64,000 nucleotides of DNA from Phenylobacterium sp. LH3H17 (GTDB lineage Bacteria; Pseudomonadota; Alphaproteobacteria; Caulobacterales; Caulobacteraceae): contig NZ_CP101283.1 in NCBI RefSeq assembly GCF_024298925.1, forward strand, positions 3,353,001 to 3,417,000. Reading direction: 5' to 3'. The number at the start of each line of letters is the position of its first letter. Position 1 is the first letter of the stretch. The translations under genes and the position numbers were made by a program. Shown piece after piece: positions 24,951-49,855 of the stretch. The notes below the pieces were generated by a model, which saw only the letters and a program-made list of their open reading frames with translations, was not told where the DNA came from and did no database searches.

Positions 24951-25032
24951 GACAACAGCCCTTCGATGACTGTCATCGCGGCCTGTTCATCTCTTCAGGT
25001 CGTCGTTAGCCTGACATTAAGCGGCGCAGGGC

Positions 25033-32980: not shown

Positions 32981-32981
32981 C

Positions 32982-34319
<1,338 letters not shown>

Positions 34320-34321
34320 CC

Positions 34322-35302
34322 ATGCAGGACCTCATCCTCCCCATCACCCTGGTCTTCGCCTTCGTGGCGACCGTGCTGGCCATTCAGGCTGGGGCCTCGA
34401 TCCTGTTCGCCTCGAGGGCGCGCCGTCAGCGCGTGAACCGGCGGCTGACCTTGCTGGAGTCGGGTATTCCGGCCAAGCAGGTCTACGAGAGCCTGGTGCG
34501 CCGGCAGTCGACCTCCGGGCTGGGCGGCATCGGCGGACGGCTCTTCGACCGCGCGGGCCTGTATCTGAGCCAGGCGGGCCTTACGGTCAGCCCGATGCGG
34601 CTGCTGGCCTACGCCGGCGGCGCGGTGGGCGTGCTCTGGCTGCTCTCGACCTTCGTGCTCGGCGCGCGCAGCCTGCAGGACACGCTGACCGCCCTGGTCG
34701 CCGCGACCGTGCTGGTGTCGGCGGTGGTGTGGGTCTGGGTGTCGCGCCAGCACGCCCAGCGCAAGAAGCTTCTGGAGGAACAGCTTCCCCTGGCCCTCGA
34801 CATCATCATCCGCGCCATCCGCGCCGGCCACCCGGTCGTGTCGGCCGTGCACCTGGTCACCCAGGAGATGGGCGACCCGATCGGTTCCGAGTTCGGGCTC
34901 ATCGTGGACGAGACCACCTACGGGTTCGAATTCCGCGAGGCCCTGGCCAACTTCGCCCGCCGGACGGGTTCGGAGGACGCCCACTTCTTCGCCGTTAGCG
35001 TCGGCATCCAGTCCGAGACCGGAGGCAATCTCGCCGAGATCCTCGCCAACCTGACCAATGTCATCCGCGGCCGCATCACGCTGGGCAAGCGCGTCCAGGC
35101 CTTGGCCAGCGAAGGCCGGATGTCTGCGGTGGTGCTCAGCCTGCTGCCGCTGTTCCTGATCTCGTTCGTCGGCCTGACCCAGCCGGCCTTCTACACGTCC
35201 AAGTTCGCCGACCCGATCTTCTGGCCTGTCGTGACCCTGACCCTGATCCTCTACGCGATCGGCCAGGTCGTCATGCACCGCATCGTCAACTTCAAGTACT
35301 AG
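34322..35302 (+). CDS. tadB: Tad pilus inner-membrane platform protein TadB
   Basis: A 326-residue T2SS-F-type platform protein. One N-terminal membrane segment (LVFAFVATVLAIQAGASIL), two more around residues 90-145, a cytosolic T2SSF domain (DIIIRAIRAGHPVVSAVHLVTQEMGDPIG...FAVSVGIQSETGGNLAEILANL), and two C-terminal segments. It starts two bases after cpaF. With TadC it forms the membrane base that CpaF rotates or pushes. Family length and all motifs are as expected. Confidence 0.94.
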   Translation: MQDLILPITLVFAFVATVLAIQAGASILFASRARRQRVNRRLTLLESGIPAKQVYESLVRRQSTSGLGGIGGRLFDRAGLYLSQAGLTVSPMRLLAYAGGAVGVLWLLSTFVLGARSLQDTLTALVAATVLVSAVVWVWVSRQHAQRKKLLEEQLPLALDIIIRAIRAGHPVVSAVHLVTQEMGDPIGSEFGLIVDETTYGFEFREALANFARRTGSEDAHFFAVSVGIQSETGGNLAEILANLTNVIRGRITLGKRVQALASEGRMSAVVLSLLPLFLISFVGLTQPAFYTSKFADPIFWPVVTLTLILYAIGQVVMHRIVNFKY

Positions 35303-35311
35303 GGGGCAGCC

Positions 35312-36262
35312 ATGGCGAACATCACGGAACTCCTCGTGCTGATCGGCGTCTTCCTCGCCGCCGTCGCCTCGTCCTATTGGCTGCTCTATCGGCTGGAATC
35401 GACGTTCCTGGTCAATCGCCGACTGCGCAAGGCGCCCGGCGGCGCCAGCGCCGGACACACGTCGTCGGTGATCAAGGACAACCGGGTCTCGAACCGGCTT
35501 CTGGCGTGGGTCCAGTCTTCCACCTCCCTGAACAACGACGTCGATCGCCGCAAGATGAGCGACCTGCTCTTCCGCGCCGGGTTCGAGAGCCCGTCCGCGC
35601 CGGTGTGGTTCTTCATCGCCCGCTTCGGCCTGGGCATTGGCTTGCCGATGCTGTTCCTGGTCGGCCAGATGCTGAGCGCCGCGCCCTACGGCACGACCAA
35701 GATGGCGATCTTCGCCGTGGTCCTGTGCGGCGCGGGCCTCATCGCACCCCGGGCCATCGTGGACCGGATGGCGGAGTCGCGCCGGGAGCAGCTGCAGCAG
35801 CAGTTCCCGGACGCCCTGGACCTGATGGTGGTCTGCATCGAGGCTGGCCTCGGCATGGAGGCGGCCTTCGTGCGGGTCGGCCAGGAGGTGACGGAGTCGC
35901 ATCCTCGCATCGCCCGGGAGTTCGGCGTCCTGTCGCAGGAGCTCAGGGCCGGGCGCACCCGGGTCGAGGCGCTGCGGAGCCTGGGCGAGCGGACCGACGT
36001 GCCGGCGATCCGCTCCTTCTCCGCCCTGTTGATCCAGACCGATTCCCTGGGGACCAGCGTCGGCCAGACCATGCGCACCTATTCCCAGGAGATGCGCCAG
36101 GATCGCCTGCTGAAGGCCGAGGAGAAGGCCATGCGCATCCCCGTGCTGATGACCATCCCGCTGGTCGCCTGCATTCTCCCGGTGGTGGTCACCGCCCTGC
36201 TGCTTCCGGGAATGATCGATATGGTTCGCGAAGGGCTGCCGGCCTTGAGGGGGACGGGTTGA
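35312..36262 (+). CDS. tadC: Tad pilus inner-membrane platform protein TadC
   Basis: A 316-residue second platform protein paired with TadB. Four membrane segments bracket a T2SSF domain with QQQFPDALDLMVVCIEAGLGMEAAFVRVG, QELRAGRTRVEALRSLGERTDVPAIRSF and LKAEEKAMRIPVLMTIPL. The start codon at 35312 follows AGGGGGC. Its TGA overlaps the ATG of the next gene (TGATG), so translation is coupled. Confidence 0.94.
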   Translation: MANITELLVLIGVFLAAVASSYWLLYRLESTFLVNRRLRKAPGGASAGHTSSVIKDNRVSNRLLAWVQSSTSLNNDVDRRKMSDLLFRAGFESPSAPVWFFIARFGLGIGLPMLFLVGQMLSAAPYGTTKMAIFAVVLCGAGLIAPRAIVDRMAESRREQLQQQFPDALDLMVVCIEAGLGMEAAFVRVGQEVTESHPRIAREFGVLSQELRAGRTRVEALRSLGERTDVPAIRSFSALLIQTDSLGTSVGQTMRTYSQEMRQDRLLKAEEKAMRIPVLMTIPLVACILPVVVTALLLPGMIDMVREGLPALRGTG

Positions 36263-37140
36263 TGTCCAGGAAACTTGCACGCGCCATCGCGCTCGCCGCG
36301 CCGCTGCTGGCCTTGACGCTGGGCGGCTGCGCGACGGTCGGAAACCTCATGAGCCGGCTGTCCGGCCACAAGCCGGTCCCGCAGCTCCAGGCCCGCGCCG
36401 CGCCGACTGGAGCCTCCGAAGTTCCGACGACCTTGCCGGCCGACCGCCTGTACGGCGCCGCGGCCCGGAGCATCCGGGAGCGAGACTATGCCGGGGCGCT
36501 GGACATCCTTCAGGTCGCACGGGAACGCACGCCGGAAGACGCGCGCATCCTGAACGCCATGGGCGTGGTCTATGACAAGCTTGGCCGCTTCGACCTGAGC
36601 GAGCGCTACTACGCCCAGGCCGCGCGCGTCGAGCCGGACTCGCCGATCATCGCCGCGAACCTTCGCTATTCGTCCATGCTCCAGGCGGCTCAGCGGAACC
36701 CGGCGCCTTTGCTTGCCCAATCCACGCCACCGGCGCCGACGCGCCTGGCCGATCTTGCCCGGACGGGCGAGACCCGGGCCGTGCCCGCGACGCCGCCGCT
36801 GATCCGGCGCGTCATCCCCGTGGGCGTGGTCCACCGCGCGACCCCCGCCCTCGCCGGCGGGCGGCTGACCCTGGTGAATGCCGGCGGCCGCACCCTGACC
36901 CCGACCCGTCTCTACCTCGCCGGCGCCGGCTGGACGCTGACCCAGGCGGACCAGGCCGCGGCGCCGCAGGATCGCTCCGAGATCCGGTACGACGCGCAGA
37001 TCGAACCGGTGGCCCGGGCGCTGGCACGAACCTTGCCGTTCAAGGTGGCAATGGCGGCCTGCGCCTCGGCCTGCCCGTTCCAGCTGGTGCTGGGTCGGGA
37101 CGCGCCGGCGGCGCTGGCGCTCAAGGGAGGACGTTCGTGA
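36262..37140 (+). CDS. tadD: TPR lipoprotein, TadD-like
   Basis: A 292-residue lipoprotein with lipobox LGGC (Cys23). Two tetratricopeptide repeats are visible at about 75-145: YGAAARSIRERDYAGALDIL and AMGVVYDKLGRFDLSERYYAQ. The remaining 130 residues are a Pro/Ala linker and a beta-rich domain with two Cys (ACASACPF). TadD proteins are outer-membrane pilotin-like TPR lipoproteins for the secretin. Only the N-terminal half looks like TadD; the C-terminal domain is unassigned. It overlaps both neighbours by one base. Confidence 0.8.
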   Translation: MSRKLARAIALAAPLLALTLGGCATVGNLMSRLSGHKPVPQLQARAAPTGASEVPTTLPADRLYGAAARSIRERDYAGALDILQVARERTPEDARILNAMGVVYDKLGRFDLSERYYAQAARVEPDSPIIAANLRYSSMLQAAQRNPAPLLAQSTPPAPTRLADLARTGETRAVPATPPLIRRVIPVGVVHRATPALAGGRLTLVNAGGRTLTPTRLYLAGAGWTLTQADQAAAPQDRSEIRYDAQIEPVARALARTLPFKVAMAACASACPFQLVLGRDAPAALALKGGRS

Positions 37141-38054
37141 TGACAGGCTACAGGTCGAGTGCAAGGCTCGCGGCCCTGGCGTTCGCGGCCCTGGCCGTGG
37201 CGTCCGTCGGGACGCCGGCCGCAGCCGGCTTCTTCAAGCCGGGCAAGGCCGCCCAGGCGACCGCCAACCTGGACATCGCCACCAGCGAGTTCGATCGCGC
37301 CATGCAGGAACAGCGCCTCGTGGACGCCGGCCGGGTTCTCGACGGAGCCCTGGTCGTCGCGCCGACCGATCCGCGACTGATGTTGCGATCTGGCGAACTG
37401 CACCTGGCGCGAGGACGATTCGAAGAGGCCGCCCGCAGCTTCGCGCTGGCGGAAGCCGCGCCGACGCTGAACGCCCAGGCGCTGCAGGGCCGCGGCGTCG
37501 CCCTGGCCCAACTCGGCCGTTCTGACGAGGCCATCGCCACCTTGCGCCGCGCGGTCGCCGCCGACCCTGCCCTCTGGCGCGCCTGGAACGCGCTGGGCGT
37601 CGAGAGCGACCGCCGCCGGGACTGGACGACCGCGGAAGCCGCCTATGCGAAGGCCATCGCCACGCCGTCGGTGGACGAGATCGTCTACAACAACCGCGGC
37701 TATTCGCGCCTGCTGCAAGGCCGCTATTCGGACGCCTCGGCCGATTTCGTCGCCGCCCTGGATCGCGACCCGACCCTCACCGCCGCCCGGATGAATCTGA
37801 GACTCTCACTGGCGCTGCAGGGCGACTACGCCCGTGCGACGGCGGTGGGCGACAAGGACCAGAAGGCCGGCGTGCTCAACAACGCCGGGTTCGCCGCCGT
37901 GCTGCGGGGCGACCTGGACGACGCCCAGCGCCTGTTCGAACAGGCCATCGACAATCGCGGCAGCACCTATGGCCGCGCCTATCACAACCTGGAACTGGTC
38001 AAGGCTATGAAGGCCGGCCAGCCGGATATCGCGACGATTCCCGCCAAGCCATGA
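37140..38054 (+). CDS. Second periplasmic TPR protein of the Tad operon
   Basis: A 304-residue exported protein made almost entirely of TPR-like helical pairs (about residues 45-280), e.g. ARGRFEEAARSFALAEAA, AQLGRSDEAIATLRRAVAADP and LQGRYSDASADFVAALDRDP. The signal peptide ends near TPAAAG and there is no lipobox. Its ATG at 37140 shares a base with the preceding stop (a GTG three bases upstream is an alternative). Its end overlaps cpaA by four bases. It probably serves as a periplasmic scaffold for pilus assembly, by position. Confidence 0.82.
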   Translation: MTGYRSSARLAALAFAALAVASVGTPAAAGFFKPGKAAQATANLDIATSEFDRAMQEQRLVDAGRVLDGALVVAPTDPRLMLRSGELHLARGRFEEAARSFALAEAAPTLNAQALQGRGVALAQLGRSDEAIATLRRAVAADPALWRAWNALGVESDRRRDWTTAEAAYAKAIATPSVDEIVYNNRGYSRLLQGRYSDASADFVAALDRDPTLTAARMNLRLSLALQGDYARATAVGDKDQKAGVLNNAGFAAVLRGDLDDAQRLFEQAIDNRGSTYGRAYHNLELVKAMKAGQPDIATIPAKP

Positions 38055-38554
38055 TCGCAGAGGTCCTGCCCTGGGTGACGCCAGCCGTGTTCGCGGCCAT
38101 GCTGGCGATCGCCGCGATTATGGACATCCTGCATCGACGGATTCCGAACTGGACGGTCGCCGTCCTGATCGTCACCTATCTCGCGGCGGTCGCCGCGGGG
38201 CTCGCGCCCTCCCCGCTGCTCTCGGGGCTTGGCGCGGCAGCCATCACCTTCGCCGTCACCTACCTACTCTACCATTTCAACATCTTTGGAGCCGGCGACG
38301 CCAAGCTGTTTTCGGCGGCGGCCCTGTTCGCCGGCCTGGCGAACCTGGGGACCCTGGCCCTCCTCACCGTGCTGTTCGGCGGCGCGATCGCCTTGGGCTT
38401 CCTGCTCCTGCGGCCGGACCGGGCCATGCGCGCCCTGACCACACGGGGCCGGACTTCCGGCGAAAAGTCGGGCATCCCCTACGGCGTGGCCATCGCGCTG
38501 GGCGCCATCACGACGGGGGTCGTCACCCCCGGATTCCTTCCGCCGCTGGGCTAG
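38051..38554 (+). CDS. cpaA: Prepilin peptidase CpaA/TadV
   Basis: A 167-residue type IV prepilin peptidase of the short form without the methyltransferase domain. The two catalytic Asp residues are in IMDILHRRIPN (Asp25) and FGAGDAKL (about Asp83). About six membrane segments are predicted by eye. It matures the Flp pilins and TadE/F pseudopilins. It closes the operon instead of lying next to the pilin gene as in Caulobacter. Its TAG overlaps the stop of the convergent pseudopilin gene in a CTAG palindrome. Confidence 0.92.
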   Translation: MIAEVLPWVTPAVFAAMLAIAAIMDILHRRIPNWTVAVLIVTYLAAVAAGLAPSPLLSGLGAAAITFAVTYLLYHFNIFGAGDAKLFSAAALFAGLANLGTLALLTVLFGGAIALGFLLLRPDRAMRALTTRGRTSGEKSGIPYGVAIALGAITTGVVTPGFLPPLG

Positions 38555-38943
38555 TCCGGGAAGCAGGCCGTCGCGTTGAGCGGCACCGCCAGGGTCATAA
38601 GGCCCGTGCGCAGCGAGAAGAATCCCGCGCCGCTCACCTGATACCCGCATGCCACCGCTGCCGCAGGGCTGGTGAAGGTCAAACTCGCCAGGCCGGGGCC
38701 GCTATAGCGCGTCGCGGCGTAGGCTTCCGTCGTCGTCTTGTTCGTGCAGACCAAGGTCTTGACCGCCCGGCATCGCGCGGCGTCCTGCACGGCGAAATGC
38801 AGACTCGACGCGGCTTGCAGCATGAAGGTCAGGTAGATGGTGCCGATAGTCAGCAGGAGCAGGAGCGGCAGGACCAGCACGAACTCCGCAGCGCTTGAGC
38901 CGCTCTGGTCTGCAAAGAATTCCCTGGCGCGGCGCAAGATCAT
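38551..38943 (-). CDS. TadE/F-like pseudopilin
   Basis: A 130-residue protein. The start at 38943 (MILRRAREFFADQSG) is set two bases beyond the upstream gene's stop and gives the standard TadE-like N-terminus: charged leader, SGSSAAEFVLVLPLLLLLTIGTIYLTF membrane helix with Glu at mature position 5, then a beta-rich domain with five Cys. It is cut by CpaA and is a minor pilus component. It is the third gene of a three-gene minus-strand unit facing the main Tad operon. Confidence 0.87.
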   Translation of the reverse strand: MILRRAREFFADQSGSSAAEFVLVLPLLLLLTIGTIYLTFMLQAASSLHFAVQDAARCRAVKTLVCTNKTTTEAYAATRYSGPGLASLTFTSPAAAVACGYQVSGAGFFSLRTGLMTLAVPLNATACFPD

Positions 38944-38945
38944 GC

Positions 38946-39488
38946 TCAGCCCAACCGCATCCAGGCCGTGCGGACAATCGGGGTCGGCAGCAGGCTGACG
39001 ATCGACACCCCCGAGAACACCGGCGAATAGCTGTAACTGACCGCCACCTGGATATAGTCGCCGGCCGTACCGGCCGGATAGCCGGCCGCCGCGCAACTCT
39101 GACCATAGGTTCCCACCGGTTGCAGCACCTCTGTCGCGTCGGGGCAGTAGGCCCCTTCCGTGGGCGAGCCCGTCACCAGGGTCACATTCGCGCCCAGCGA
39201 GGTGCTCTGGATCGCCGTGGAGATGGCGTTGGTCATGGTGGCGCCGCACGCCGTGCCCTTCGGCTGGCCGGCCAGCGCCGAGCAGGCATCCCACGCCGCC
39301 TGGGCGCCGACCTGGGCCGCCTCCTCGACCTGCATCTTCTGGAAGGTGTAGAAGCCCAGGTCCACGACATTGAGGACCGGCACGACCAAGACCCCGGCCC
39401 AGAGCGCGATTTCCAGGGCCGCCGCGCCGCGCTCGTTGGCGAGAAAACCTTTCCGACGCTTGGGGATGGGAAAGCTGGGAACGGTCAT
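38946..39488 (-). CDS. TadE-like pseudopilin
   Basis: A 180-residue pseudopilin. The ATG at 39488 overlaps the stop of the TadG-like gene (ATGA). After a basic leader (KRRKGFLANERG) comes AAALEIALWAGVLVVPVLNVVDLGFYTF with the conserved Glu, then an extracytoplasmic domain with four Cys. It ends three bases before the next gene starts. Such pairs (TadE, TadF) interact as minor pilins required for Flp pilus formation. Confidence 0.87.
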   Translation of the reverse strand: MTVPSFPIPKRRKGFLANERGAAALEIALWAGVLVVPVLNVVDLGFYTFQKMQVEEAAQVGAQAAWDACSALAGQPKGTACGATMTNAISTAIQSTSLGANVTLVTGSPTEGAYCPDATEVLQPVGTYGQSCAAAGYPAGTAGDYIQVAVSYSYSPVFSGVSIVSLLPTPIVRTAWMRLG

Positions 39489-40822
39489 TGGATGAGACTG
39501 GGACCGGCTCCTGACCCGGGCGGGCCCTGCAGGGTTAGGTTCGCGCGATCGCACTGGCTGGTCGGCGCGCTGAAGATGCCGCCCGTTCCGCGGATATCGA
39601 TGGTCCAGGCCACGATCGCCATGCAGTTGTCGCCGCCGGTCTTATGGTCGATGGCGCCCTTGATGATGATATTGGCCTTGGGCATGTAGAGCAGGCCCGT
39701 GACCTTGTAGATGGGCGCGTTGCCGGCGTCGCTGACGTCCAGGCCGGAATGCGCCGTCAAGGCCGGATCCTGATAGATCGCCACCCCGGCCCACACGCCG
39801 GTCGTCGGCGCGGCGAAGTCCATCGTGCCGTTGCCCGTGAAGACATGCGATTGGCCATCACCCGGCGACCCGGTGAAGATGATCGTGAGATGCCCCGTGC
39901 CGGTGGTGCTCAGGGTGAAGTTGTTGAGATTGAGCTGCCCTTGCGAAATCGTCATGACGACGTCGCTGGTGACCGTGACGTTTCCGGTCAGCGTCACGTC
40001 TCCGCAGCGGGAATAGTTGGCGCTGAGTGGTCCCGTCAGGGTGTGCGACCCGCGAACCCCGCACGGGTTCACGATGTTCGAAGCCAGCGGCGCATAGATG
40101 TCCGCCGGCGGTGCGCCGACGATCTCGTTCGAACCGCAGTTGTCGTTCGACTTGCCCGCCATGGTGACATAGGCGTGGCCCACCGTGTCTCCGGAGTTGC
40201 CGTTGCAGCTCGCCCCGCCGGCGGAAGCGATGTCGCAGCCGGTAAGGTCGAGGCTGGGCGCGCCCTTGAATTGCAGGGCGTCGGCGGCTGGATTGAACGT
40301 GGTCAGGCAGTACGTACCCTTGCTGCCGGCTCGGGCGATGGCGGTCGAGATCACGGTCTTGGCGCGTCCGGCGCCCATGGCCACATCGCCATTGTACCCG
40401 ACCAGCCGGGCCAGGCGGATCGGGATGTCCCGCGTGATCGTCACTTGGTAGCAGTTGCCGGTCCAGGGCGCCGGACAGGTCGGATAGGTGGCCACAACGC
40501 TGACATTGTTGGTCCCGGTCGTGTAGCCGTAGCGGCTCGCCACGCCCCTGGCCTCTTCGGAATAGGTCGGCGGCGGGCTGGTGCTGGGTCCGGTGTTGTT
40601 GGTGGCCGCGGCCAGGGCGGCGGAGTCGGCCGCGTGCTGCATGGAACGCTGCGCCAGGAACCAGGTCGAGGTCTCGCTGGCCACGGCGAAGCCGCCGACG
40701 ATGGCCGGCAGCAGGATCGCGATGATCGGGGTGACGTTGCCCTGCGTCGAACCCATCAGCCGGACAAGGCCCCGCTTCAAGGTTCGGCCGACCGTCCTTG
40801 AGAATTCGCCGCCGCCAGCCAA
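39485..40822 (-). CDS. TadG-like pilus/von Willebrand-type secreted protein
   Basis: A 445-residue protein beginning with a TadG-type anchor: GSTQGNVTPIIAILLPAIVGGFAVASETSTWFLAQRSMQHAADSAALAA split over residues 24-72, the putative-Flp-secreted (Tad) N-terminus with one membrane helix. The rest is a long beta-rich extracytoplasmic region with many Cys and repeats such as LTGNVTVTSDVV and SGLDVSDAGNAPIYKV. It heads the minus-strand TadG-E-F unit. The C-terminal domain is not recognised. Confidence 0.82.
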   Translation of the reverse strand: MAGGGEFSRTVGRTLKRGLVRLMGSTQGNVTPIIAILLPAIVGGFAVASETSTWFLAQRSMQHAADSAALAAATNNTGPSTSPPPTYSEEARGVASRYGYTTGTNNVSVVATYPTCPAPWTGNCYQVTITRDIPIRLARLVGYNGDVAMGAGRAKTVISTAIARAGSKGTYCLTTFNPAADALQFKGAPSLDLTGCDIASAGGASCNGNSGDTVGHAYVTMAGKSNDNCGSNEIVGAPPADIYAPLASNIVNPCGVRGSHTLTGPLSANYSRCGDVTLTGNVTVTSDVVMTISQGQLNLNNFTLSTTGTGHLTIIFTGSPGDGQSHVFTGNGTMDFAAPTTGVWAGVAIYQDPALTAHSGLDVSDAGNAPIYKVTGLLYMPKANIIIKGAIDHKTGGDNCMAIVAWTIDIRGTGGIFSAPTSQCDRANLTLQGPPGSGAGPSLIQ

Positions 40823-41150: not shown

Positions 41151-41336
41151 ATGATCAAGGTGCGGGAGGGCGTCCTGCTTGCCATGATGGGCATGCTCGC
41201 CTGGTATGCGCTTCTGCTCGCGCCCGAACGGCGCATCGCCCTGGATCAGCGGATATATGAGGTCGCGCAGCAGGGCGGCGAGGCGGCCGCGACGGGTCTG
41301 GAGACCATCCGATACGTCATAGCGCGGCGCTCCTGA
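41151..41336 (+). CDS. Small single-pass membrane protein
   Basis: A 61-residue protein with one membrane helix (VLLAMMGMLAWYALLLA) and an amphipathic C-terminal part. GGAGG lies nine bases before the ATG, which supports translation. It overlaps the end of the convergent GT87-like gene by 20 bases. The family is unknown. It lies between the Tad and chaperone-usher loci but no link can be shown. Confidence 0.45.
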   Translation: MIKVREGVLLAMMGMLAWYALLLAPERRIALDQRIYEVAQQGGEAAATGLETIRYVIARRS

Positions 41337-42513
41337 CCTTGCCGGCAGGCGCCTCGCCAAGGGCCGTGGCCGCGATCAGGCCAAGCAGTCCGACCACCAG
41401 CAGTGGCATGAGATTGAACCCCAGGGTGATGGCCGCCGGACGGCAGATCACCGGCGTCACGTAGATCGTCAGCAGCAGCAGCTTCCCCCAAGGGCCAAAG
41501 CCTGACTCCATTCCGCGCCGCGCCAGCCAGCAGAGCGGGACGATGAGCAGGACGAAGTCGTAGTCGAGCACATAGGGCGTGGCCAGGAGCGACCCCGTCG
41601 CCAGGGCGGCCAGCCTGGTGAGCGCGTCGGCGCCGGACCGCCAGACCCACGCCACCGCCCCGGCCGCGGCGAGGCTCAGCAGCCCTTGAGAACCGATCGC
41701 CGCCCAGGCCGGAGCGCCGATCTGGCGCAGGGCGCCGTACAGGCTCTGGACCTTTGCCCAGCCCAACGGGGATCCCTCTTGCAGCAGGCCGAGGCTGGTC
41801 GAACCGGCGCCCATGAATGCGGCGTAGGTCTCCGGTCCGAAGGCGACCAGCGCCAGAAGCAGCAGGGCGAGGCTGGACAGCGCCGCGCCCAGCAGGGTTC
41901 GCCAGAATCCGCCCGCGATCAGGGCGAGCGGAATGAGCAGCCCGAGCTGCGGCTTGAAGATCAGGCACCCGAAGACCAGGCCGGCGACGAACGGGCGGCG
42001 CGCCATGAGCAGTCCGGCCGCCACGAACAGGCCCGTGAACAGCGCCGCCGTCTGACCCTGGACCGCGTTGACGTAGAGCGCGGGAAACACCGCGATGGGC
42101 CAGGCGCCGGCGCGCAGCAGACGCCGGGCGGCCCCGAGATAGACCGCGTAGGTCGCCGCCACCCACGTCGGGTAGGCGACCGCGAAGGGGATCAAGGCCA
42201 GCGGCGCGACGAGGGCGAGAAACGGCGGCGGATACAGGAACGGAAGGTAGCGGCCATGGCTCTGGAAGGCCTCGGCCTGGAAGGCGATCTGGGCGGCGGC
42301 GTCATAGGCGCTCGCGGGATCGCGCCAGAACAGCGACCCGGCGCTCCAGAAGCTCATGAAGTCGACGTTCGGGCGGCCGCCCGGCTGCGTTCCGATGGCG
42401 TAGAGATATGGAATGATCAAAAGCGGGACATAGGCCAGCGCCAGGATCTTGGCGTATCCGACCGCGCGGTCCCGATCGAGCCAGCGGGCGTGGCGAACGA
42501 AATCCAGGCTCAT
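41317..42513 (-). CDS. GT87-family (DUF2029) polytopic glycosyltransferase-like protein
   Basis: A 398-residue membrane protein, paralogous in layout to the gene at 23802-24950: NVDFMSFWSAGSLFWRD first loop, YLPFLYPPPFLALVAPLAL, and the central FKPQLGLLIPLAL with the KPQ motif. The start at 42513 (MSLDFVRHARW) follows GGGGAGGG; the frame is open to 42639 but the extra residues look non-coding. About eleven membrane segments. It is divergent from the DUF4402 pilin operon. The donor is likely a polyprenyl-phosphate sugar, by family. Confidence 0.8.
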   Translation of the reverse strand: MSLDFVRHARWLDRDRAVGYAKILALAYVPLLIIPYLYAIGTQPGGRPNVDFMSFWSAGSLFWRDPASAYDAAAQIAFQAEAFQSHGRYLPFLYPPPFLALVAPLALIPFAVAYPTWVAATYAVYLGAARRLLRAGAWPIAVFPALYVNAVQGQTAALFTGLFVAAGLLMARRPFVAGLVFGCLIFKPQLGLLIPLALIAGGFWRTLLGAALSSLALLLLALVAFGPETYAAFMGAGSTSLGLLQEGSPLGWAKVQSLYGALRQIGAPAWAAIGSQGLLSLAAAGAVAWVWRSGADALTRLAALATGSLLATPYVLDYDFVLLIVPLCWLARRGMESGFGPWGKLLLLTIYVTPVICRPAAITLGFNLMPLLVVGLLGLIAATALGEAPAGKVRSAAL

Positions 42514-42861
42514 CGCCGACCCTCCCCGCGAAACCGCGCGCCCGTCGCGGCGGCCTGCCCAGTTCAGCCTAGCAGGTCTTTCGGTCGCCGCCGCCACCCC
42601 CGACCTGGCGAGGAAGACGAGTCTTGGCGGATCAACCACAAGACCAACGCCCCGGTCGTCAAGTCATCGGCATGGCGGATGAAGCATCTCCAGTCACGAC
42701 GCCGGTTCCGGTCCTTGGCGCCATCCGTATTCGCTCGCGGCATCCCCCATATGGGACTTGCGGGGTTAAGGGAGGTTAAGGCTCCCTTAAGGCAAGCTGG
42801 CCATGGGGCCCGGCGCGGGGGGCGCGAGCTGCTTCCCGGCAACCTGTCTGGGGGTTCGACT
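42514..42861. promoter_or_regulatory. Divergent promoter region of the DUF4402 fimbrial operon
   Basis: About 350 bases between the GT87-like gene and the first fimbrial pilin. It holds the CtrA-like site and nested inverted repeat at 42766-42790. The pilin ribosome site is GGGGG seven bases before the ATG. Confidence 0.55.
42766..42790. promoter_or_regulatory. Exact CtrA-type box nested in an inverted repeat
   Basis: TTAAGGCTCCCTTAA at 42776-42790 matches TTAA-N7-TTAA exactly. A third TTAA lies six bases upstream (42766), and TTAAGGGAG/CTCCCTTAA form perfect 9-bp arms around GTTAAGG. It sits 72 bases before the pilin ATG. CtrA is the Caulobacterales cell-cycle master regulator; binding is inferred from sequence only. 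Confidence 0.55.
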
Positions 42862-43398
42862 ATGAAATTGCTTATCAAGGGCGCGCTCGCCGCGCTGCTG
42901 CTGACCGGAGCCGCGACCTCGGCCTCGGCGCAGGCGACCGCCACGGCCAACGCCAACGGCTCGGTGACCATCTTCCGGCCGATCACGGTCGCCAAGAACG
43001 CCGACCTGAAGTTCGGAAACATCGTGAAGCCGGGCGGCGGCACGGGCACGGCCAGCGTGGCCGCAGACTCCGGCGGCGCGCTCACGGTCGGCGGCGGCGT
43101 GGTCGACCTCGCGAGCGGCGACGCGTCGTCTGCGGCGAAGTTCACGGTCGCCGGCGAAGGCGGCCAGGCCTTCACCCTGGCGGTGGCCGACAGCTTCGTG
43201 ATCACTAATACAGTCGACAACATCACCGTGACGACCAGCCAGGACGTGGCCGACGGCACGCAAAGCCTCAGCGGCGCGCTGGGCGACGGATCCGACGGGA
43301 CCAAGGAAGTCCATGTGGGCGGCTCGATCTCGGTGCCCAGCTCCATCTCGACCGGCCTGTTCACCGGCTCCTTCAGCGTCACGGCTACCTACAACTAG
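42862..43398 (+). CDS. DUF4402-family fimbrial pilin (major subunit candidate)
   Basis: A 178-residue secreted protein. The signal peptide ends at ASAQ; the mature chain starts with NANGSVTIFRPITVAKNADLKFGNIVKP, the conserved DUF4402 strand pattern. Gly/Ser/Ala-rich beta strands follow, ending in GLFTGSFSVTATYN with a penultimate Tyr, as in chaperone-usher pilins. No Cys is present. It is the first gene of the operon, followed by hairpins, then a PapD-like chaperone and a usher-like protein. A similar pilin closes the operon at 48430. That it is a pilin rests on context plus the C-terminal strand. Confidence 0.82.
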   Translation: MKLLIKGALAALLLTGAATSASAQATATANANGSVTIFRPITVAKNADLKFGNIVKPGGGTGTASVAADSGGALTVGGGVVDLASGDASSAAKFTVAGEGGQAFTLAVADSFVITNTVDNITVTTSQDVADGTQSLSGALGDGSDGTKEVHVGGSISVPSSISTGLFTGSFSVTATYN

Positions 43399-43425
43399 TT
43401 CAGCTTTTTCCGGTCCCCCGCGGAC

Positions 43426-43470
43426 GTCCCGCACGGCGCAAGCCATGCGGGACGAAGCCGGGGCGGCTTC
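43426..43470 (+). terminator. Two hairpins after the first DUF4402 pilin gene
   Basis: GTCCCGCA (43426-43433) pairs with TGCGGGAC (43446-43453), directly followed by GAAGCC (43454-43459) and GGCTTC (43465-43470). No U-run follows, so partial termination or 3' end protection of pilin mRNA is more likely than full stop. Confidence 0.55.
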
Positions 43471-43524
43471 ATCTTGTGGAAATCCGGCGCGGCCATAGTG
43501 AGTCCTCTGGTCGCGGGGGCGCCG

Positions 43525-44424
43525 ATGAATATCGTACCAGTGCAATTCGCGCGGCTCGCAGCCGCCTTGTTCGCGGCGCTGCTCCTGGCGCCTGGGACGG
43601 CGTCGGCCCAGGTCGGCGCGGACCTCAACATCTCGCCCAAGCGCGTGGTCTTCGACCCCAACGGGCGCAGCGCCAGCGTCTATGTCTTCAACCAGGGCGA
43701 CGCGCCGGCGACCTATAGCGTCGCGCTGGTCGATCGGGTCATGCTGGACACCGGCGAGATCATCGCCATCGACGACGCCCAGAAGGATCCAGCCAAGGCC
43801 GCGACCGCCGCGATGGTCAAGTCGGCCAAGTCCCTGATCACCTTCACCCCGCGCCGGGTCACCCTGGCGCCCAAGACCAGCCAGCTCGTGCGCCTGCGGG
43901 TGCTGCGTCCTGGCGACCTGGCCGCGGGCGAATACCGCACCCATCTGACGGTCACCGCCATTCCGCCCGAGGACACCGGCGTCACCGCCGAACAGGCGGC
44001 CGCCGGCCTGCAGCCGGGCGAGATGACCGTCCGCGTTGTGGCGCTGTTCAGTCTCAGCATCCCGCTGATTGTCCGCCACGGACCGGAAGATGTCCGCGGC
44101 GGCGTCGAGAACCTCGCCTACGAGATCCGCGACATGGACGGCCCAGACGGCGGCACGGCGCGCAAGACCGGCTTCGTCAGCCTCGACCTCACCCGCCTCG
44201 GCGCCAGCTCGCTCTATGGCGACGTGGAAATCCGCGGCGGCCCCAAGAACGAGATCATCGGCGGGATGCGCGGCATCGGCGTCTATCCCGAGATCGCGCG
44301 CCGACGTGTAACCCTGCAACTGCAGACCCTGCCGAACCACGGCGACGTCCTGACGGTGAACCTGAAAGATGACGAGGCCCGGCCGGGCGCGCCGATCGCG
44401 ACGGGTCGTCTGACGGTCCCATGA
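43525..44424 (+). CDS. PapD-like periplasmic fimbrial chaperone
   Basis: A 299-residue exported protein starting at 43525 (MNIVPVQFARL), signal peptide ending at ASAQ. The first Ig-like domain (about 30-160) has ISPKRVVFDPNGRSASVYVFNQGD and the chaperone-style edge strand FTPRRVTLAPKTSQLVRLRVLRP. The second domain (about 165-299) is beta-rich. It is longer than classical PapD (about 220). It probably donates a strand to the DUF4402 subunits and hands them to the usher. Its stop overlaps the usher start (ATGA). Confidence 0.82.
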   Translation: MNIVPVQFARLAAALFAALLLAPGTASAQVGADLNISPKRVVFDPNGRSASVYVFNQGDAPATYSVALVDRVMLDTGEIIAIDDAQKDPAKAATAAMVKSAKSLITFTPRRVTLAPKTSQLVRLRVLRPGDLAAGEYRTHLTVTAIPPEDTGVTAEQAAAGLQPGEMTVRVVALFSLSIPLIVRHGPEDVRGGVENLAYEIRDMDGPDGGTARKTGFVSLDLTRLGASSLYGDVEIRGGPKNEIIGGMRGIGVYPEIARRRVTLQLQTLPNHGDVLTVNLKDDEARPGAPIATGRLTVP

Positions 44425-47138
44425 CTGCCCGCCTGCGGCTGGCCGCGCTGGCGCTGGCCGCGGCCTTCGCGGCAAGCTCACTCCACGCCGAGCCCATTGT
44501 CGCCCTCGACGCCGCGGGCGCCTCGGCGCCCAGCGCGCCGTTCACGGCCGAGGACTTGGTGCTGCTGGAGGTCCGCGCCGGCGACTACGTCCTGACCGAC
44601 GCCCTTGACGGCTATGCCGCTCGCTCCGGCGTGTTCGTGCCGCTGGGTCAGCTCTCACGGCTGCTCGACCTCGCCATCGTGGTCTCGCCGCCGGACCGGC
44701 GGGCGGAGGGCTGGGCCCTATCGCCCGACAAGCGCGTCCAGCTCGATCTGGCCGCCGAGACCGCCAGCGCCGGGGGCGAGACCTTCCGCGTGGACGCCGC
44801 CCAGGCGGTGCTGCTGGGCGACGAGATCTATGTGCGCACCGACCTGCTGGAGCGCCTGCTGCCGCTGAAGGCCAAGGCCGACATCCCCAGCCTGTCGCTC
44901 ACCCTCGTCCCTCTGACGCCCCTGCCCTTCCAGGAACGGCTGGCGCGGGAGAGCAAGCGGAAGGGCCTGGACGGTTCGCGCACCATCGAGGCGGTGCTGG
45001 ATGTCGCCACACCCTATGAGCTGTTCACACCGCCGTCGGCCGACCTGAACCTGAATGTCGAGATGGCCGGCAATGCGCCTGACCCGACGACCCAGTACCA
45101 GCTGCGCCTGGCGGGCGACCTCTTCTATGCCGGCGCCCAGCTGTATGCCGGCTCCGACAGCCGCGGCGAGCTCTCCGACGTCCGCATGGTGCTGGAGCGC
45201 AAGGACCCCGAGGGCGGGATCGGCCCGTTGCACCTCACCCGCGCCGGCGCCGGCGACGTCTTCACCCCCGCCCTGGCCATCGGAGCGCGGGGGGCGGGGG
45301 GGCGGGGCGTCTATATGACCTCCGAGCCACTGGAGCAGCCGAGCGTGCTGGGCCGCATCGACGTGCGCGGCGAGCTCGAACTGGGCTGGGATGTGGAGCT
45401 CTATCTCAACGAACTGCTCCAGGGCTCGCAGGCCACGCCGGTCGGCGGACGCTACGAGTTTCCCGAAGTGCCCCTGTCCTACGGGCTGAACACCCTGCGC
45501 CTGGTCTTCTACGGTCCACGCGGCGAGCGGCGCGAAGAGGTGCGGCGGCTGAACTTCGGCGGCGGCCTCCTGCCCAAGGGCCGAGCGGTGTTCCGCTTCG
45601 GCGCCGTCGAGGAGGGCGTCAACCTCATCAAGGTCGGCGACGGAGCGATGCTCTCCGGCGGCGGTCTTGCCGGCCAGGGGCAGTGGCGAGTGCTGGCCGG
45701 GTTCGACTACGGCCTGGCGACCAACCTCTCACTATCGACCGGCTACGCCCGCTACACGCCGGCCCCTGACGACACGCGCCAGTTGTTGACGACCGGCGTG
45801 CGGACCAGCGTGGCTGGCGTCGCGCTGATCGCGGACGGGGCCGTCGACGGCGAGGGCGGAGCGGCCGTGGCCATCACCGGCCTGGGCCGGGCGCGCGGGG
45901 TATCCTACAGCCTGCGTCACGCCGAATACGGCGGGGGCTTCGTCGACGAGACCCAGTCGCGCGGCTCAGACGTGTCCCGCCCCCTCGCCCGGTCGAGCGA
46001 GCTGCGGCTGGACGGTCAGGCGCGCCTGCCGCTGCTGAATCGAGACGCGCCCGCCTCGCTCAGCCTGCGCCGCGACCAGTTGGCGAACGGCGACACCTTC
46101 CTGCAGGCCGCGGCGCGGGCCTCGACGACGGTGGACGGCTTCGTGGTGGCGACCAACCTCGCCTATACGCGCGACGACCAGGCCGGCCGGGGCGCCAGCG
46201 ATCGCCTGACCGGCGGTATGGACGCCTCCGGCGTCGTGGCCGACGTCTGGCGGGTCCGGGTCGGGGTCGACGCGGACCTGGCGCCCGAACTGCAGGCGCG
46301 GACCGCCGTGCTCACCCTGGACCGGGAGTTCGGGCAGAACCGCTCGCTGCGGTTGGGGCTGTCCCATGCGTTCGGCGACGACCCCAGCACAGGATTCCAG
46401 GCTGCGGCCACCTGGCGGTTGTCGATGGCCGACGTCACGGTGGGCGGCGGCTACGACACGGGCACGGACGAGTGGCGGATTGGATTCCAGCTCAGCACCG
46501 GCCTTTTGTTCGATCCCCTTCAGCGGCGCTACAGGCCCGCCCGCCCCGGCGCCGCCGCCGGCGGCAACGTCGCCCTGCTGGCCTTCGTGGACGAAAACGG
46601 CGACGGCGTCGCCCAGCCGGGCGAGCGGCGGATGCCAGGCTTGAAGGTGAGCGGCGGCTATCGCGAGGAGGAGGCCGACGCTCTTGGGCGGCTGGTGATC
46701 GCGGCCCTGGGAGACGGGGCATATGTGCGCCTGCGGGTCGACCCGGAGTCCGTCGACGACGCCTTCATGTCCCTGCCGCCGACGACCATCCAGTTCACGC
46801 CGCGGCCCGGCCGCGTAGCGGTGGTCGAATACGGCATGCGCACCACCAGCGAGGTCGAGCTTCGCATGTTGCTGCGAGACGCGGCCGGCGGGAGCCGGGG
46901 CCTATCGGCCCTCGGCGTCCAGCTCGTCGACGCCCAGGGCACAGTGGTCGCCGAAGGCCGCACCGAATACGACGGCGCTCTCATCCTGGAAGGCCTGCCG
47001 GCCGGCGCCTATGAGGTACGGCTGGATCCGCAGCAGAGCGCCCGCCTGCGCATGTCGCTGGAGGAGCCCGTGACGGTGCAGGTTGGAGCCGGCGGCGGCT
47101 TCCTCGGAACGGTTCGCGCGTATATTAAGATAAATTAG
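44421..47138 (+). CDS. Usher-like outer-membrane assembly protein
   Basis: A 905-residue exported protein, coupled to the chaperone. After a signal peptide (ending near LHAEP), residues 30-170 form a soluble alpha/beta region. About 220-700 is a beta-barrel-like region with alternating aromatic/hydrophobic residues and typical usher phrases such as VPLSYGLNTLRLVFYGPRG and ELYLNELLQG. The C-terminal 200 residues hold Ig/carboxypeptidase-regulatory-like modules, including a Ca-binding-like loop DENGDGVAQPGE. It differs from FimD in order and lacks an obvious Cys pair at the C-terminus. It resembles alternate-type ushers. Confidence 0.75.
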   Translation: MTARLRLAALALAAAFAASSLHAEPIVALDAAGASAPSAPFTAEDLVLLEVRAGDYVLTDALDGYAARSGVFVPLGQLSRLLDLAIVVSPPDRRAEGWALSPDKRVQLDLAAETASAGGETFRVDAAQAVLLGDEIYVRTDLLERLLPLKAKADIPSLSLTLVPLTPLPFQERLARESKRKGLDGSRTIEAVLDVATPYELFTPPSADLNLNVEMAGNAPDPTTQYQLRLAGDLFYAGAQLYAGSDSRGELSDVRMVLERKDPEGGIGPLHLTRAGAGDVFTPALAIGARGAGGRGVYMTSEPLEQPSVLGRIDVRGELELGWDVELYLNELLQGSQATPVGGRYEFPEVPLSYGLNTLRLVFYGPRGERREEVRRLNFGGGLLPKGRAVFRFGAVEEGVNLIKVGDGAMLSGGGLAGQGQWRVLAGFDYGLATNLSLSTGYARYTPAPDDTRQLLTTGVRTSVAGVALIADGAVDGEGGAAVAITGLGRARGVSYSLRHAEYGGGFVDETQSRGSDVSRPLARSSELRLDGQARLPLLNRDAPASLSLRRDQLANGDTFLQAAARASTTVDGFVVATNLAYTRDDQAGRGASDRLTGGMDASGVVADVWRVRVGVDADLAPELQARTAVLTLDREFGQNRSLRLGLSHAFGDDPSTGFQAAATWRLSMADVTVGGGYDTGTDEWRIGFQLSTGLLFDPLQRRYRPARPGAAAGGNVALLAFVDENGDGVAQPGERRMPGLKVSGGYREEEADALGRLVIAALGDGAYVRLRVDPESVDDAFMSLPPTTIQFTPRPGRVAVVEYGMRTTSEVELRMLLRDAAGGSRGLSALGVQLVDAQGTVVAEGRTEYDGALILEGLPAGAYEVRLDPQQSARLRMSLEEPVTVQVGAGGGFLGTVRAYIKIN

Positions 47139-47187
47139 GATCTATTATAGAACATTAGTAAGAATATTCGCGCGTTCGGCATTTGTT

Positions 47188-47213
47188 TTCGCAGTTGCGA
47201 AGTAAGTATTCGC
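47188..47213. promoter_or_regulatory. Composite palindromic operator-like element, copy 2
   Basis: TTCGCA-GT-TGCGAA, one base, TAAGT, one base, TTCGC. The arms, inner TAAGT and third half-site are identical to 2527-2552; only spacer bases differ. It lies in a short AT-rich gap after the usher gene and just before the LuxR-type gene, which may be its regulator or its target. Confidence 0.6.
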
Positions 47214-47270
47214 TTATGAAGAGAATTCAAAATATTAGCGTATATCCGCGTGATAGCGTCCGATTGCCTA

Positions 47271-47873
47271 ATGGGGGTGAGGGGTCGGGACGTGGTTCTT
47301 CGTGTGAAATCTCTGCGTTGGCTAGTCGCCGTCGATGGGCGGACCGTCGCCAACCTGTCGCCGGATCCGGCGCGTCGCGACATCGCCGGCGCTCCGATCG
47401 GCCGGGTGCTGCACCTGACCTGCCGCGACACCGCCACACATCTCGACTTGGCGATCGCCCGGGCGGCGCGCGACGGGGTCGGCGGGCTGGTCATGGCCCG
47501 CGAGGCCAATCACCAGATCGGCCTGCTGCTCAGCGTCAGACCGGCCCGGGAGCGCGGTTATGCGGTGGTGGAGGCGACGGACCTCGACGCGCCGCCGGAA
47601 ATGCTGGACTGGGCCGAGCTTGCCGAACTGTTCGGCATCTCGCGGGCCGAAGCCGAGATCGCCATCGGACTGCACGAGGGGGCCGACTTGGCGCTGATCG
47701 CCGAACAGCGTGGCGTACAGCTCGACACCGTGCGCAACCAGGTAAAGAGCCTGCTGCGGAAACTGGGCCTGGCCAGCCAGAAGCACCTGACTGCAACGCT
47801 TGTTCGCGTCGCCCTCGCCGGTCCGCCCCGGACGCCCCGTACCCCAGGTGGGGAATTGCGGATCGCCAGTTGA
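47271..47873 (+). CDS. LuxR-type helix-turn-helix regulator within the fimbrial operon
   Basis: A 200-residue protein whose C-terminal third is a LuxR/GerE-like HTH: LAELFGISRAEAEIAIGLHEGADLALIAEQRGV followed by DTVRNQVKSLLRKLGL. The N-terminal 120 residues (DGRTVANLSPDPARRDIAGAP, REANHQIGLLLSVRP) are an unassigned sensory region. The start is uncertain: ATG 47271 is used, but GTG codons at 47250, 47277 and 47292 are in frame. It lies between usher and minor subunit genes, directly after the composite palindrome, so it likely controls this operon. Confidence 0.78.
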   Translation: MGVRGRDVVLRVKSLRWLVAVDGRTVANLSPDPARRDIAGAPIGRVLHLTCRDTATHLDLAIARAARDGVGGLVMAREANHQIGLLLSVRPARERGYAVVEATDLDAPPEMLDWAELAELFGISRAEAEIAIGLHEGADLALIAEQRGVQLDTVRNQVKSLLRKLGLASQKHLTATLVRVALAGPPRTPRTPGGELRIAS

Positions 47874-47905
47874 GGTCCGACAGTGCGTGTAATTGGGAGG
47901 GTGTG

Positions 47906-48433
47906 ATGCGGCGGCGCTGGGCGGCAGGTTTGATCGCAGGGCTCTGCATGGTCGCGGGCGGCGCGTCGGCCGCTGAATCACTGGCGCTTAGCGTTACCCC
48001 GGGAGGCGCTCCGGCCCTCGGGAGAGTCTATCGCGCCGGCGCCAGCACGGCTTTCACTATCGGTACAAACGGCACCGTTTCACAGATTGGCCCTGCTCTT
48101 CGTTTTCCGGCCACAGGGGTTACAACCCCGACGATATCGATCACCTGCAACGGAAACGGCCACTGCAATAATCGGCCGATCACCTTTACGATTACATCGA
48201 CGGGGACAGCTCCGGCCAAGTTCACCAAGTTTTCGGTAGCATGCATTCTAGGTTGCAGCGGGATTACCCTCTCGCCAGTCTCACCTAACGGCGCGTCTCC
48301 GCTTGTCTTCACCCTTTCGGGAATGAATGGAAACAATGTGAGATTTAGCCTTGGCGGCGAAGTGACCGTAGATGCGCTCGCCGCATCGGGCCTCAAGACA
48401 TTGCCCTTCACAGTTCACGCAAACCTTCCATGA
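47906..48433 (+). CDS. Secreted beta-rich protein, candidate tip subunit or adhesin
   Basis: A 175-residue exported protein (signal peptide ending ASAA) with GGGAGGG before its ATG. The mature chain is Thr/Ser/Gly/Asn-rich with four or more Cys (TCNGNGHCN, ACILGCSG) and ends in LPFTVHANLP. It has no clear DUF4402 motif. Base composition from 48020 to 48400 is visibly lower in G+C than all neighbouring genes, with many A/T-ending codons. That suggests a different origin or diversifying selection. Its stop overlaps the next start. Being last but one in a pilus operon, it could be a tip adhesin. Confidence 0.65.
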   Translation: MRRRWAAGLIAGLCMVAGGASAAESLALSVTPGGAPALGRVYRAGASTAFTIGTNGTVSQIGPALRFPATGVTTPTISITCNGNGHCNNRPITFTITSTGTAPAKFTKFSVACILGCSGITLSPVSPNGASPLVFTLSGMNGNNVRFSLGGEVTVDALAASGLKTLPFTVHANLP

Positions 48434-48996
48434 GGCGGCAAATCCTTCAGCGGTTGTGCAAGACACCTCGTTGGGCGCCGCTCATGGCCCTCGCGCTGCT
48501 GGCGCCCACCCCCACCCCAGCCCAGGTCTCCGTCACCCGTTCCGCCAACGGCTCCGTGACCATTTTCCGGCCGCTTTCGGTCGGTGGGACGGGCGGGCTC
48601 AACTTCGGGCGGCTACACAACCAGGGCCCCAAGGGGCCGGTCGGGACGGTCACGGTGACTTCGGCGTCGCCGGCGGCGCGGAGCTCGACCGGGTCAGGCA
48701 TGCAGCTCCTGCCTGGGACCAGTCCGGCTCCGGTCATCCGCAACCTGACGGGTGAGCCAAGCCGCGCCTATCATGTGGGGCTGCCGGCCTCGGTCACCGC
48801 CACGCCCGGCGGGTTGCTGGTCAACCAGTTCACCGTCTGGAGCCAGAACTCCGGCAACATCAGCGTCAGCCGCCTGGGCCAGCTCAACGCCTCGGGCCAG
48901 GACACGGTGCGAGTCGGCGCGACCCTCACCGTACCGCCGGGGACCGGGAACAATGTCTTCACCGCCAACGTGCCCGTCACCCTCACCTACGACTAG
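48430..48996 (+). CDS. DUF4402-family fimbrial subunit (minor pilin candidate)
   Basis: A 188-residue secreted protein, coupled by ATGA to the previous gene. After a signal peptide ending at PTPAQ the mature chain begins RSANGSVTIFRPLSVGGTGGLNFGRL, the same DUF4402 opening as the pilin at 42862. It ends NVFTANVPVTLTYD, again with a penultimate Tyr and alternating hydrophobic strand as in donor-strand-complemented pilins. It closes the operon. The G+C content returns to the local norm. It is more divergent in the middle than expected of a recent duplicate. Confidence 0.8.
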   Translation: MRRQILQRLCKTPRWAPLMALALLAPTPTPAQVSVTRSANGSVTIFRPLSVGGTGGLNFGRLHNQGPKGPVGTVTVTSASPAARSSTGSGMQLLPGTSPAPVIRNLTGEPSRAYHVGLPASVTATPGGLLVNQFTVWSQNSGNISVSRLGQLNASGQDTVRVGATLTVPPGTGNNVFTANVPVTLTYD

Positions 48997-49249: not shown

Positions 49250-49855
49250 ATGCGGCTTCGATCACGTGGCCCGGCGACCGGGGCTCGGCTCCGCGCGGGA
49301 CATCTCACCCGGGTGAGGGTCCTGCGCCGGGCCCTGCCGACCACAGCGGCGGTCCTCTGCGCGCTTTGCGCGGCCCAGATCGCCATGAGCGGCGTCGCCG
49401 CGCCGAGCCGGCCCCAGACGAGCGATGTCGACACCATGGTCAAGCCCCGATTCGCGGGGCGGGGCCCCAGCGGGGAGAGCTTCATCATCACCGGAAGTGA
49501 GGGCCGCCGCGCCGACCCGACCACCGCCCGCATCGAGATCGTCGACCCGGTCCTGGTCCTGCGGGACGAGGCGGACAGGACCAAGCGCATGACCGCCCGG
49601 GCCGGGGTGTTCGACGAGACCGCCCACGTCCTGGTCCTGACCGGCGACGTCAGGATGGACAACGGCGGCGGCGGTCGCTTCGCCGCCGACCAGGCGCGCA
49701 TCGACACCCGGACCGGCGCGGTCAGTGGCCAGAGCGGCCTGCGGATCGAGAGCGGCGCCGGCGTCGTCCAGGGCGGGTCGTACGAGGCCGACCAAGAGGG
49801 CGATCGCTTGATCCTCAAGGGCGGCGTTCGCGGCCGGCTGACGCCGAACAACTAG
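49250..49855 (+). CDS. LptC-like periplasmic lipid-export protein
   Basis: A 201-residue bitopic protein: one N-terminal membrane helix (TTAAVLCALCAAQIAMSG) and a beta-rich periplasmic part with the LptC/OstA-like pattern VKPRFAGRGPSGESFIITGSEGRR, IVDPVLVLRDE, and VLTGDVRMDN. LptC links LptB2FG to the periplasmic LptA bridge. Placed at the head of the sphingolipid cluster, with LptF/LptG-like genes at the other end, it may serve sphingolipid rather than LPS transport. A second, LPS-type lptC elsewhere would support that. Assignment to the fold is fairly firm; substrate is inference. Confidence 0.75.
   Translation: MRLRSRGPATGARLRAGHLTRVRVLRRALPTTAAVLCALCAAQIAMSGVAAPSRPQTSDVDTMVKPRFAGRGPSGESFIITGSEGRRADPTTARIEIVDPVLVLRDEADRTKRMTARAGVFDETAHVLVLTGDVRMDNGGGGRFAADQARIDTRTGAVSGQSGLRIESGAGVVQGGSYEADQEGDRLILKGGVRGRLTPNN

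Follow-up and report, generated by a model that had tools for sequence, protein, structure and literature searches.

The six-gene operon at 42862-48996 on the forward strand of the Phenylobacterium sp. LH3H17 stretch analyzed here (the window, 64,000 nucleotides with 68.5% GC from a 4.27-Mb genome in 2 contigs) is a chaperone-usher system that is real, largely unannotated and part of an archaic-like branch of the pathway. Its genes encode, in order, a DUF4402 pilin, a chaperone, an usher, a LuxR-type regulator, a Cys-bearing pilin-like protein and a second DUF4402 pilin (Table 1). The operon very probably builds a surface fiber through a chaperone-usher pathway that is related to the archaic (sigma, Csu-type) pathway but has diverged far from it. 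Computation supports the usher fold, the pilin fold (moderately), the homology of the usher, the chaperone and the pilin to their archaic counterparts, the gene order, and the equivalence of fused and split forms of one subunit pair. Divergence is such that the usher, the pore protein of the system, escapes standard family searches, and the fiber subunits are labeled only as a domain of unknown function. The open reading frames (ORFs) have the coordinates given in an earlier note on the window, which described two DUF4402 proteins flanking a chaperone, an usher-like protein, a LuxR regulator and a Cys protein with coupled starts, and ATGA overlaps are present at the chaperone/usher (44421-44424) and Cys protein/second DUF4402 (48430-48433) junctions. 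The suggestion that the set departs from the FimA/C/D scheme does not hold, as the order is the usual one of pilin, chaperone, usher and putative tip.

No usher match was found for the 905-aa protein in Pfam or NCBIfam at E ≤ 1. The Usher model PF00577 matched none of 52 family rows and nothing in the strain's own genome, and CooC_C gave no match in the protein at E ≤ 1 and none in the genome. The AlphaFold model of the protein is a barrel with the plug and terminal domains of the usher fold and matches FimD and PapC, in agreement with its earlier designation as usher-like; the structural alignment (VIA-align) lists little over the usher N-terminal domain. A profile of this usher family aligned with a profile of known ushers over 657 columns (E = 4.4e-24), with controls at noise. 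Comparison by hhalign with the FimD sequence alone was not significant, that with EcpC alone gave a very weak C-terminal alignment at 0.4% probability, and a PDB sequence search with the single usher returned no informative usher match. The CooC_C usher set reached 30% probability in an unfair comparison, because its rows were truncated where the loci end and included at least one wrong-strand ORF (L110). A few database entries for such ushers are already named “Fimbrial biogenesis outer membran...”, and the Pfam usher model overlooks this usher branch of Caulobacterales and Sphingomonadales.

The C-terminal Ig/Ca-loop region reported earlier is real (SdrD_B, 21.7 bits, below the cut-off of 29.7) but sits at the position of the usual usher C-terminal domain and is not an extra module. 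Identity as an MSCRAMM or carboxypeptidase-like surface protein, for which Pfam and PDB sequence matches were confined to the C-terminal region, was rejected because the modeled structure is a barrel. Several variants of the usher were observed among relatives. Usher frames of Novosphingobium/Erythrobacter-type loci (L052, L053, L058, L060, L061, L063, L065 and others) are extended N-terminally by up to ~490 aa ahead of the common part; the extensions are Pro/Ala-rich in the three read (L053, L065 and L082). An usher of the window's family from outside the class (L090:499-4035, minus strand; the same gene in L172) has a SPOR domain behind the usher part. One usher-family match (G516:C8:31847-34324) contains a single in-frame TAA, and a second match without a stop lies on another contig.

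The chaperone matched PapD_N at 24.5 bits, just above the cut-off of 23, and a PapD_N match at E ≤ 0.01 was obtained for 46 of the 64 members of its family. Its profile aligned by hhalign over 211 columns with 22 mostly archaic chaperones (E = 3.5e-15; controls, ≤0.5%), a set found with an archaic seed that includes some near-duplicates and two rows from CooC_C loci. In the PDB, a joint chaperone profile, 8 of whose 14 rows themselves come from archaic-type loci, matched CsuC best (E = 1.9e-25). Matches of the chaperone profile to Caf1M were weak (E = 0.42). Nothing informative was obtained in a PDB sequence search with the single chaperone. The unusual length attributed to this PapD-like protein in the earlier note is evident in the translation, which exceeds archaic chaperones mainly through loop inserts, e.g., at approximately residues 78-100 and 148-168. 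Residue correspondences were counted by hand in an alignment of the 64 family members. P109 (64/64) aligns with CsuC Pro59, the invariant proline of strand D1 in the superfamily; Y254 (63/64) aligns with the archaic anchor Tyr196, and S178 (58/64) aligns with Ser117, with the roles of CsuC residues as given in an excerpt of PMC4654587. The Arg89 anchor may correspond to R138 or H140 (63/64 each), between which the alignment is ambiguous by two residues, and an equivalent of Arg174 is not kept, the aligned position (231) being Tyr or Phe in 63/64 (residue roles from the same excerpt of PMC4654587).

Both small pilins are members of PF14352 (DUF4402; 71.9 and 55.9 bits, cut-off 25.2), and no further PF14352 match was found in the genome. 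Pfam lists this family as a domain of unknown function, whereas a pilin role, and with it a testable function for DUF4402, is proposed here; the term DUF4402 was not found in the PMC literature searched. The DUF4402 protein models as a pilus subunit, with moderate support for the pilin fold. SCPU (PF05229) has no match in the genome, and the window pilins show remote homology only to this family: the DUF4402 profile aligned by hhalign with SCPU pilins over 134 columns (E = 3.3e-10; controls, ≤0.3% probability) when a 19-row alignment was used instead of a smaller 4-row alignment, which gave a 32-column match. A PDB sequence search with the DUF4402 profile returned nothing informative. Cys is absent from the first DUF4402 pilin in all 61 rows.

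A scan of genome contigs yielded 326 usher relatives, and the best 80 of these form the basis of all locus counts. The chaperone gene lies directly 5' of the usher gene in 75 of the 80, the other 5 having a contig end there, and 72 of these 75 have a DUF4402-type gene (local profile) ahead of the chaperone gene, the other 3 lying near a contig start. This recurrent order argues that the operon is not a chance arrangement. In 240 genomes of the class, including the strain's own, the usher (E ≤ 1e-30) was found in 16, DUF4402 in 10 and both in 8, versus 0.67 expected from the product of frequencies, and all 8 have one or more DUF4402 matches no farther than 3 kb from the usher. DUF4402 is thus co-conserved with the chaperone and usher, as the earlier note's proposal of a single system entailed. 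That note had envisaged a distinct surface-fiber system of Caulobacterales; the chaperone-usher set is supported by the usher fold and profile homologies, but the restriction to Caulobacterales is not. By genus or order in the entry title, counted by hand and with genera placed in orders as we take them to belong, the 80 relatives comprise 36 from Caulobacterales, 39 from Sphingomonadales and 5 that could not be told. Of 299 genomes in the phylum, 44 had any match; the usher match was nearly full-length in 5 and covered 742 of 908 positions in G267, and the others matched over C-terminal stretches only. Two genomes from outside the class, G240 and G267, retain a chaperone gene next to the usher. 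Within the family, the operon's usher occurs in 17 of 119 genomes and the system is therefore an accessory trait. No description of the system was found in the literature on Caulobacter, Sphingomonas, Brevundimonas, Phenylobacterium and Novosphingobium among the matches listed.

The archaic class, e.g., Csu of Acinetobacter baumannii, is the nearest of those tested, but the system is not filed there because its pilins are not SCPU proteins and the Arg174 equivalent is absent. The system resembles Csu in the profile-level homology of its usher, chaperone and pilin, in having Ser-Ile-Pro following the donor strand and a Tyr196 equivalent, and in the presence of a two-domain tip-like protein in relatives. 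The differences are DUF4402 pilins, the first of them lacking Cys, an usher missed by PF00577, a longer chaperone, the lack of an Arg174 equivalent, and a tip-like protein split into two genes. Classical pili (FimD/PapC ushers and FimC/PapD chaperones) share the usher and pilin folds, whereas the profile comparison with FimD alone was not significant. Aligned by eye with PapD, its sequence and numbering being as we assume them, the window-type chaperones have an Arg (R40, 64/64) at what we take to be the position of PapD Arg8, like classical chaperones, and a Pro at the presumed position of Lys112, unlike them; several archaic chaperone rows also have Arg at the R40 position. With alternative (alpha) pili, i.e., ECP and CooC_C ushers, the operon shares a LuxR-type regulator, the family of MatA, and the very weak EcpC alignment, but it differs in the absence of CooC_C matches from the genome and the 30% probability against the set of cut CooC_C rows.

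It is possible, if on balance doubtful, that this is a plain archaic operon with drifted proteins and no distinct mechanism. The homology of all three core parts to archaic parts and the CsuC match of the joint profile, with its share of archaic rows, are consistent with this explanation, but the pilin family, the Cys-free first pilin, the absence of an Arg174 equivalent, the invariant Arg presumed equivalent to PapD Arg8 (which several archaic rows share) and the failure of PF00577 argue against it. Conversely, a fourth, DUF4402-type chaperone-usher class beside the classical, alternative and archaic classes can be proposed only tentatively. It would be defined by its own hybrid carboxylate anchor in the chaperone and by a tip subunit existing both as a two-domain protein (donor strand in cis) and as two proteins (in trans).

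The two forms of this putative tip subunit are found behind the usher gene. Loci were grouped by hand into 30 with a fused form (one ~330-aa protein matching the Cys-type profile in its first half and the DUF4402 profile in its second), 16 with a split form of two genes, as in the window, 22 with neither protein (including L047, L056 and L068, where room is present), 4 with a partial form, and 8 cut off behind the usher (including L077 and L081). The partial loci, which have one of the two proteins or, in L016 and L019, none, all belong to the split clade. The 22 loci with neither fall in a clade in which, on contigs long enough to show it, the chaperone is preceded by 3 to 7 DUF4402 genes. 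On an usher tree of 86 rows (quick LG+G4), all 31 fused rows and 2 cut-off rows lie on one branch (support, 100) and all 18 split rows lie inside a 23-row branch (97), so that the difference requires one change. The tree is unrooted, and the program flagged L087-L090 as long outlying branches and 11 rows for unusual composition. The four outlying loci have no recognized Cys-type or fused protein behind the usher and therefore do not indicate the order of the fused and split forms. Within the window's genus, G605, G586 and G620 have the fused form and G563 has neither form behind the usher. G605 is the only one of these in the tree, where its usher (L168) groups with that of Phenylobacterium deserti on a branch different from that of the window operon, for which transfer or old paralogy may account.

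We read the Cys protein and the second DUF4402 protein as a tip subunit that would be one protein in relatives and two here. The Cys-rich secreted protein of the earlier note is indeed Cys bearing and pilin-like, but it is not a standalone type, its counterpart forming the first half of the fused protein. Two Cys are present in 46 of 49 Cys-type domains; two others contain four, and the remaining one lacks Cys. The segment from the Cys-type domain to the LxFG motif in the 30 fused proteins is 26 to 43 residues (median, 32), long enough for a whole DUF4402 N-terminal extension. The stretch before the matching motif is shorter in the Cys-type domain (median of 17 versus 31 and 30; the approximate rule used gave values for 25/48, 27/45 and 7/9 rows). 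The fusion, the segment length and the shorter N terminus suggest that the Cys protein may sit at the tip, where the extension of the second DUF4402 protein would hold it, in trans in the window and in cis in the fused relatives. An excerpt of PMC9452303 describes CsuE as a tip adhesin of two domains. It is unlikely that the two proteins instead form the fiber base, act as a terminator or are secreted for another use. The Cys protein has no Pfam match or recognized adhesin domain and a database search returned only 2 unnamed relatives, as might be expected of such a pair, but the position 3' of the usher, the two-domain fusion (as in CsuE) and the shorter N terminus all resemble tip subunits. 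The fused and split pairs offer a natural experiment to test whether donor-strand complementation is equivalent in cis and in trans.

The surface-fiber reading implies the following assembly. Signal peptides would take the subunits into the periplasm, where the chaperone would lend its G1 strand to cap each DUF4402 subunit, whose Ig fold would lack the last strand. The usher, with its barrel and N- and C-terminal domains, would receive chaperone-subunit complexes and thread the growing chain outward, the chaperone strand being replaced through donor-strand exchange by the N-terminal extension of the next DUF4402 subunit. The Cys protein, with its shorter N terminus, would exit first and occupy the tip, anchored there by the second DUF4402 protein through its extension, and the first DUF4402 protein would be polymerized behind it; in relatives both tip parts would reside in one protein that keeps the extension between its domains. 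Adhesion is a plausible use. Some observations weigh against this reading: 8 of the 16 usher genomes in the class gave no DUF4402, two DUF4402 genomes lack the usher (G396, where it is below the cut-off, and G429, which has a PF00577 match), and the interdomain segment has charged residues in many Phenylobacterium rows. Assembly of the products into a non-fibrous coat or short surface polyadhesin, and not a pilus, is improbable. Fiber length is not readable from sequence and the window has only two DUF4402 genes, which would suit a coat, but the N-terminal extension, the tip-like two-domain partner in relatives and a clade in which as many as 7 DUF4402 genes precede the chaperone suit a fiber.

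The internal LuxR regulator described in the earlier note does have a LuxR-type helix-turn-helix (HTH; GerE, below the cut-off of 23.5 bits) and does lie inside the operon, but it was rejected as a core part, since relatives occur between the usher and Cys genes in only 3 of the 80 loci (L004, L010 and L027), all in the split clade. Its presence requires 3 changes on the usher tree. In 13 inspected loci without it (12 of 13 split loci and L009) the open frame of the Cys gene overlaps the usher by ATGA at its start; in L015 and L050 a later start is the more probable one. The regulator gene therefore looks inserted. Three relatives of 193 aa (93, 90 and 89% identical) start at the equivalent of 47292, which is therefore preferred to 47250; the database copy of the window's regulator is 189 aa with a start at 47304. 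A relative of the regulator bears the name Phenylobacterium.

Twelve Brevundimonas-type loci (L003, L005-L009, L011, L012, L014, L045, L055 and L062) carry a divergent regulator just 5' of the first DUF4402 gene, with a receiver and a LuxR HTH as judged by eye. The receiver domains led to its rejection as a close homologue of the window's LuxR protein, and it was picked up because of the shared HTH after profile iteration. An integral, ancestral regulator comparable to the LuxR-type MatA/EcpR of ECP is very unlikely: the gene is internal in the window and three relatives and E. coli K-12 matA adjoins ecpA on the same strand, but these are outweighed by its rarity, the Cys gene/usher overlaps, and the upstream receiver-type regulators of the Brevundimonas-type loci. 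Regulation of the operon by the LuxR protein may still occur. The spacer before its gene belongs to the GC-poorest parts of the window (the 120-base segment at 47139 is fourth of 6388), and 120-base segments below 42% GC occur only at 47101-47270 and 14381-14600. The corresponding spacer has 39% GC in L027 and 52% in L010 and is practically missing in L004; no consensus sigma-70 promoter was found in that of the window.

Table 1. Features of the chaperone-usher operon (window coordinates)
Feature	Position	Strand	Remarks
DUF4402 pilin 1	42862..43398	+	178 aa; signal peptide and N-terminal extension; probable main fiber subunit
PapD-like periplasmic chaperone	43525..44424	+	299 aa; ATG start at 43525; PapD_N match
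Divergent outer-membrane usher	44421..47138	+	905 aa
AT-rich gap, candidate control region before LuxR gene	47139..47291		43% GC
LuxR-type regulator, accessory insert	47292..47873	+	193 aa; frame open from 47250; GerE, 16.4 bits
Pilin-like Cys protein	47906..48433	+	175 aa; four Cys in mature part; matches N-terminal domain of relatives' fused protein
DUF4402 pilin 2	48430..48996	+	188 aa; PF14352, 8.9e-15; matches C-terminal domain of relatives' fused protein

The operon is followed by an LptC-like gene (49250-49855) and preceded, on the opposite strand, by a GT87 gene (41317-42639). Elsewhere in the window, a 631-aa ORF at 24966-26861 has no Pfam match at E ≤ 0.001. Tad/Flp pilus-type genes adjoin at 32925-40822 and encode a T2SSE ATPase, two T2SSF proteins, a TPR protein, TadE and a TadG-like protein.

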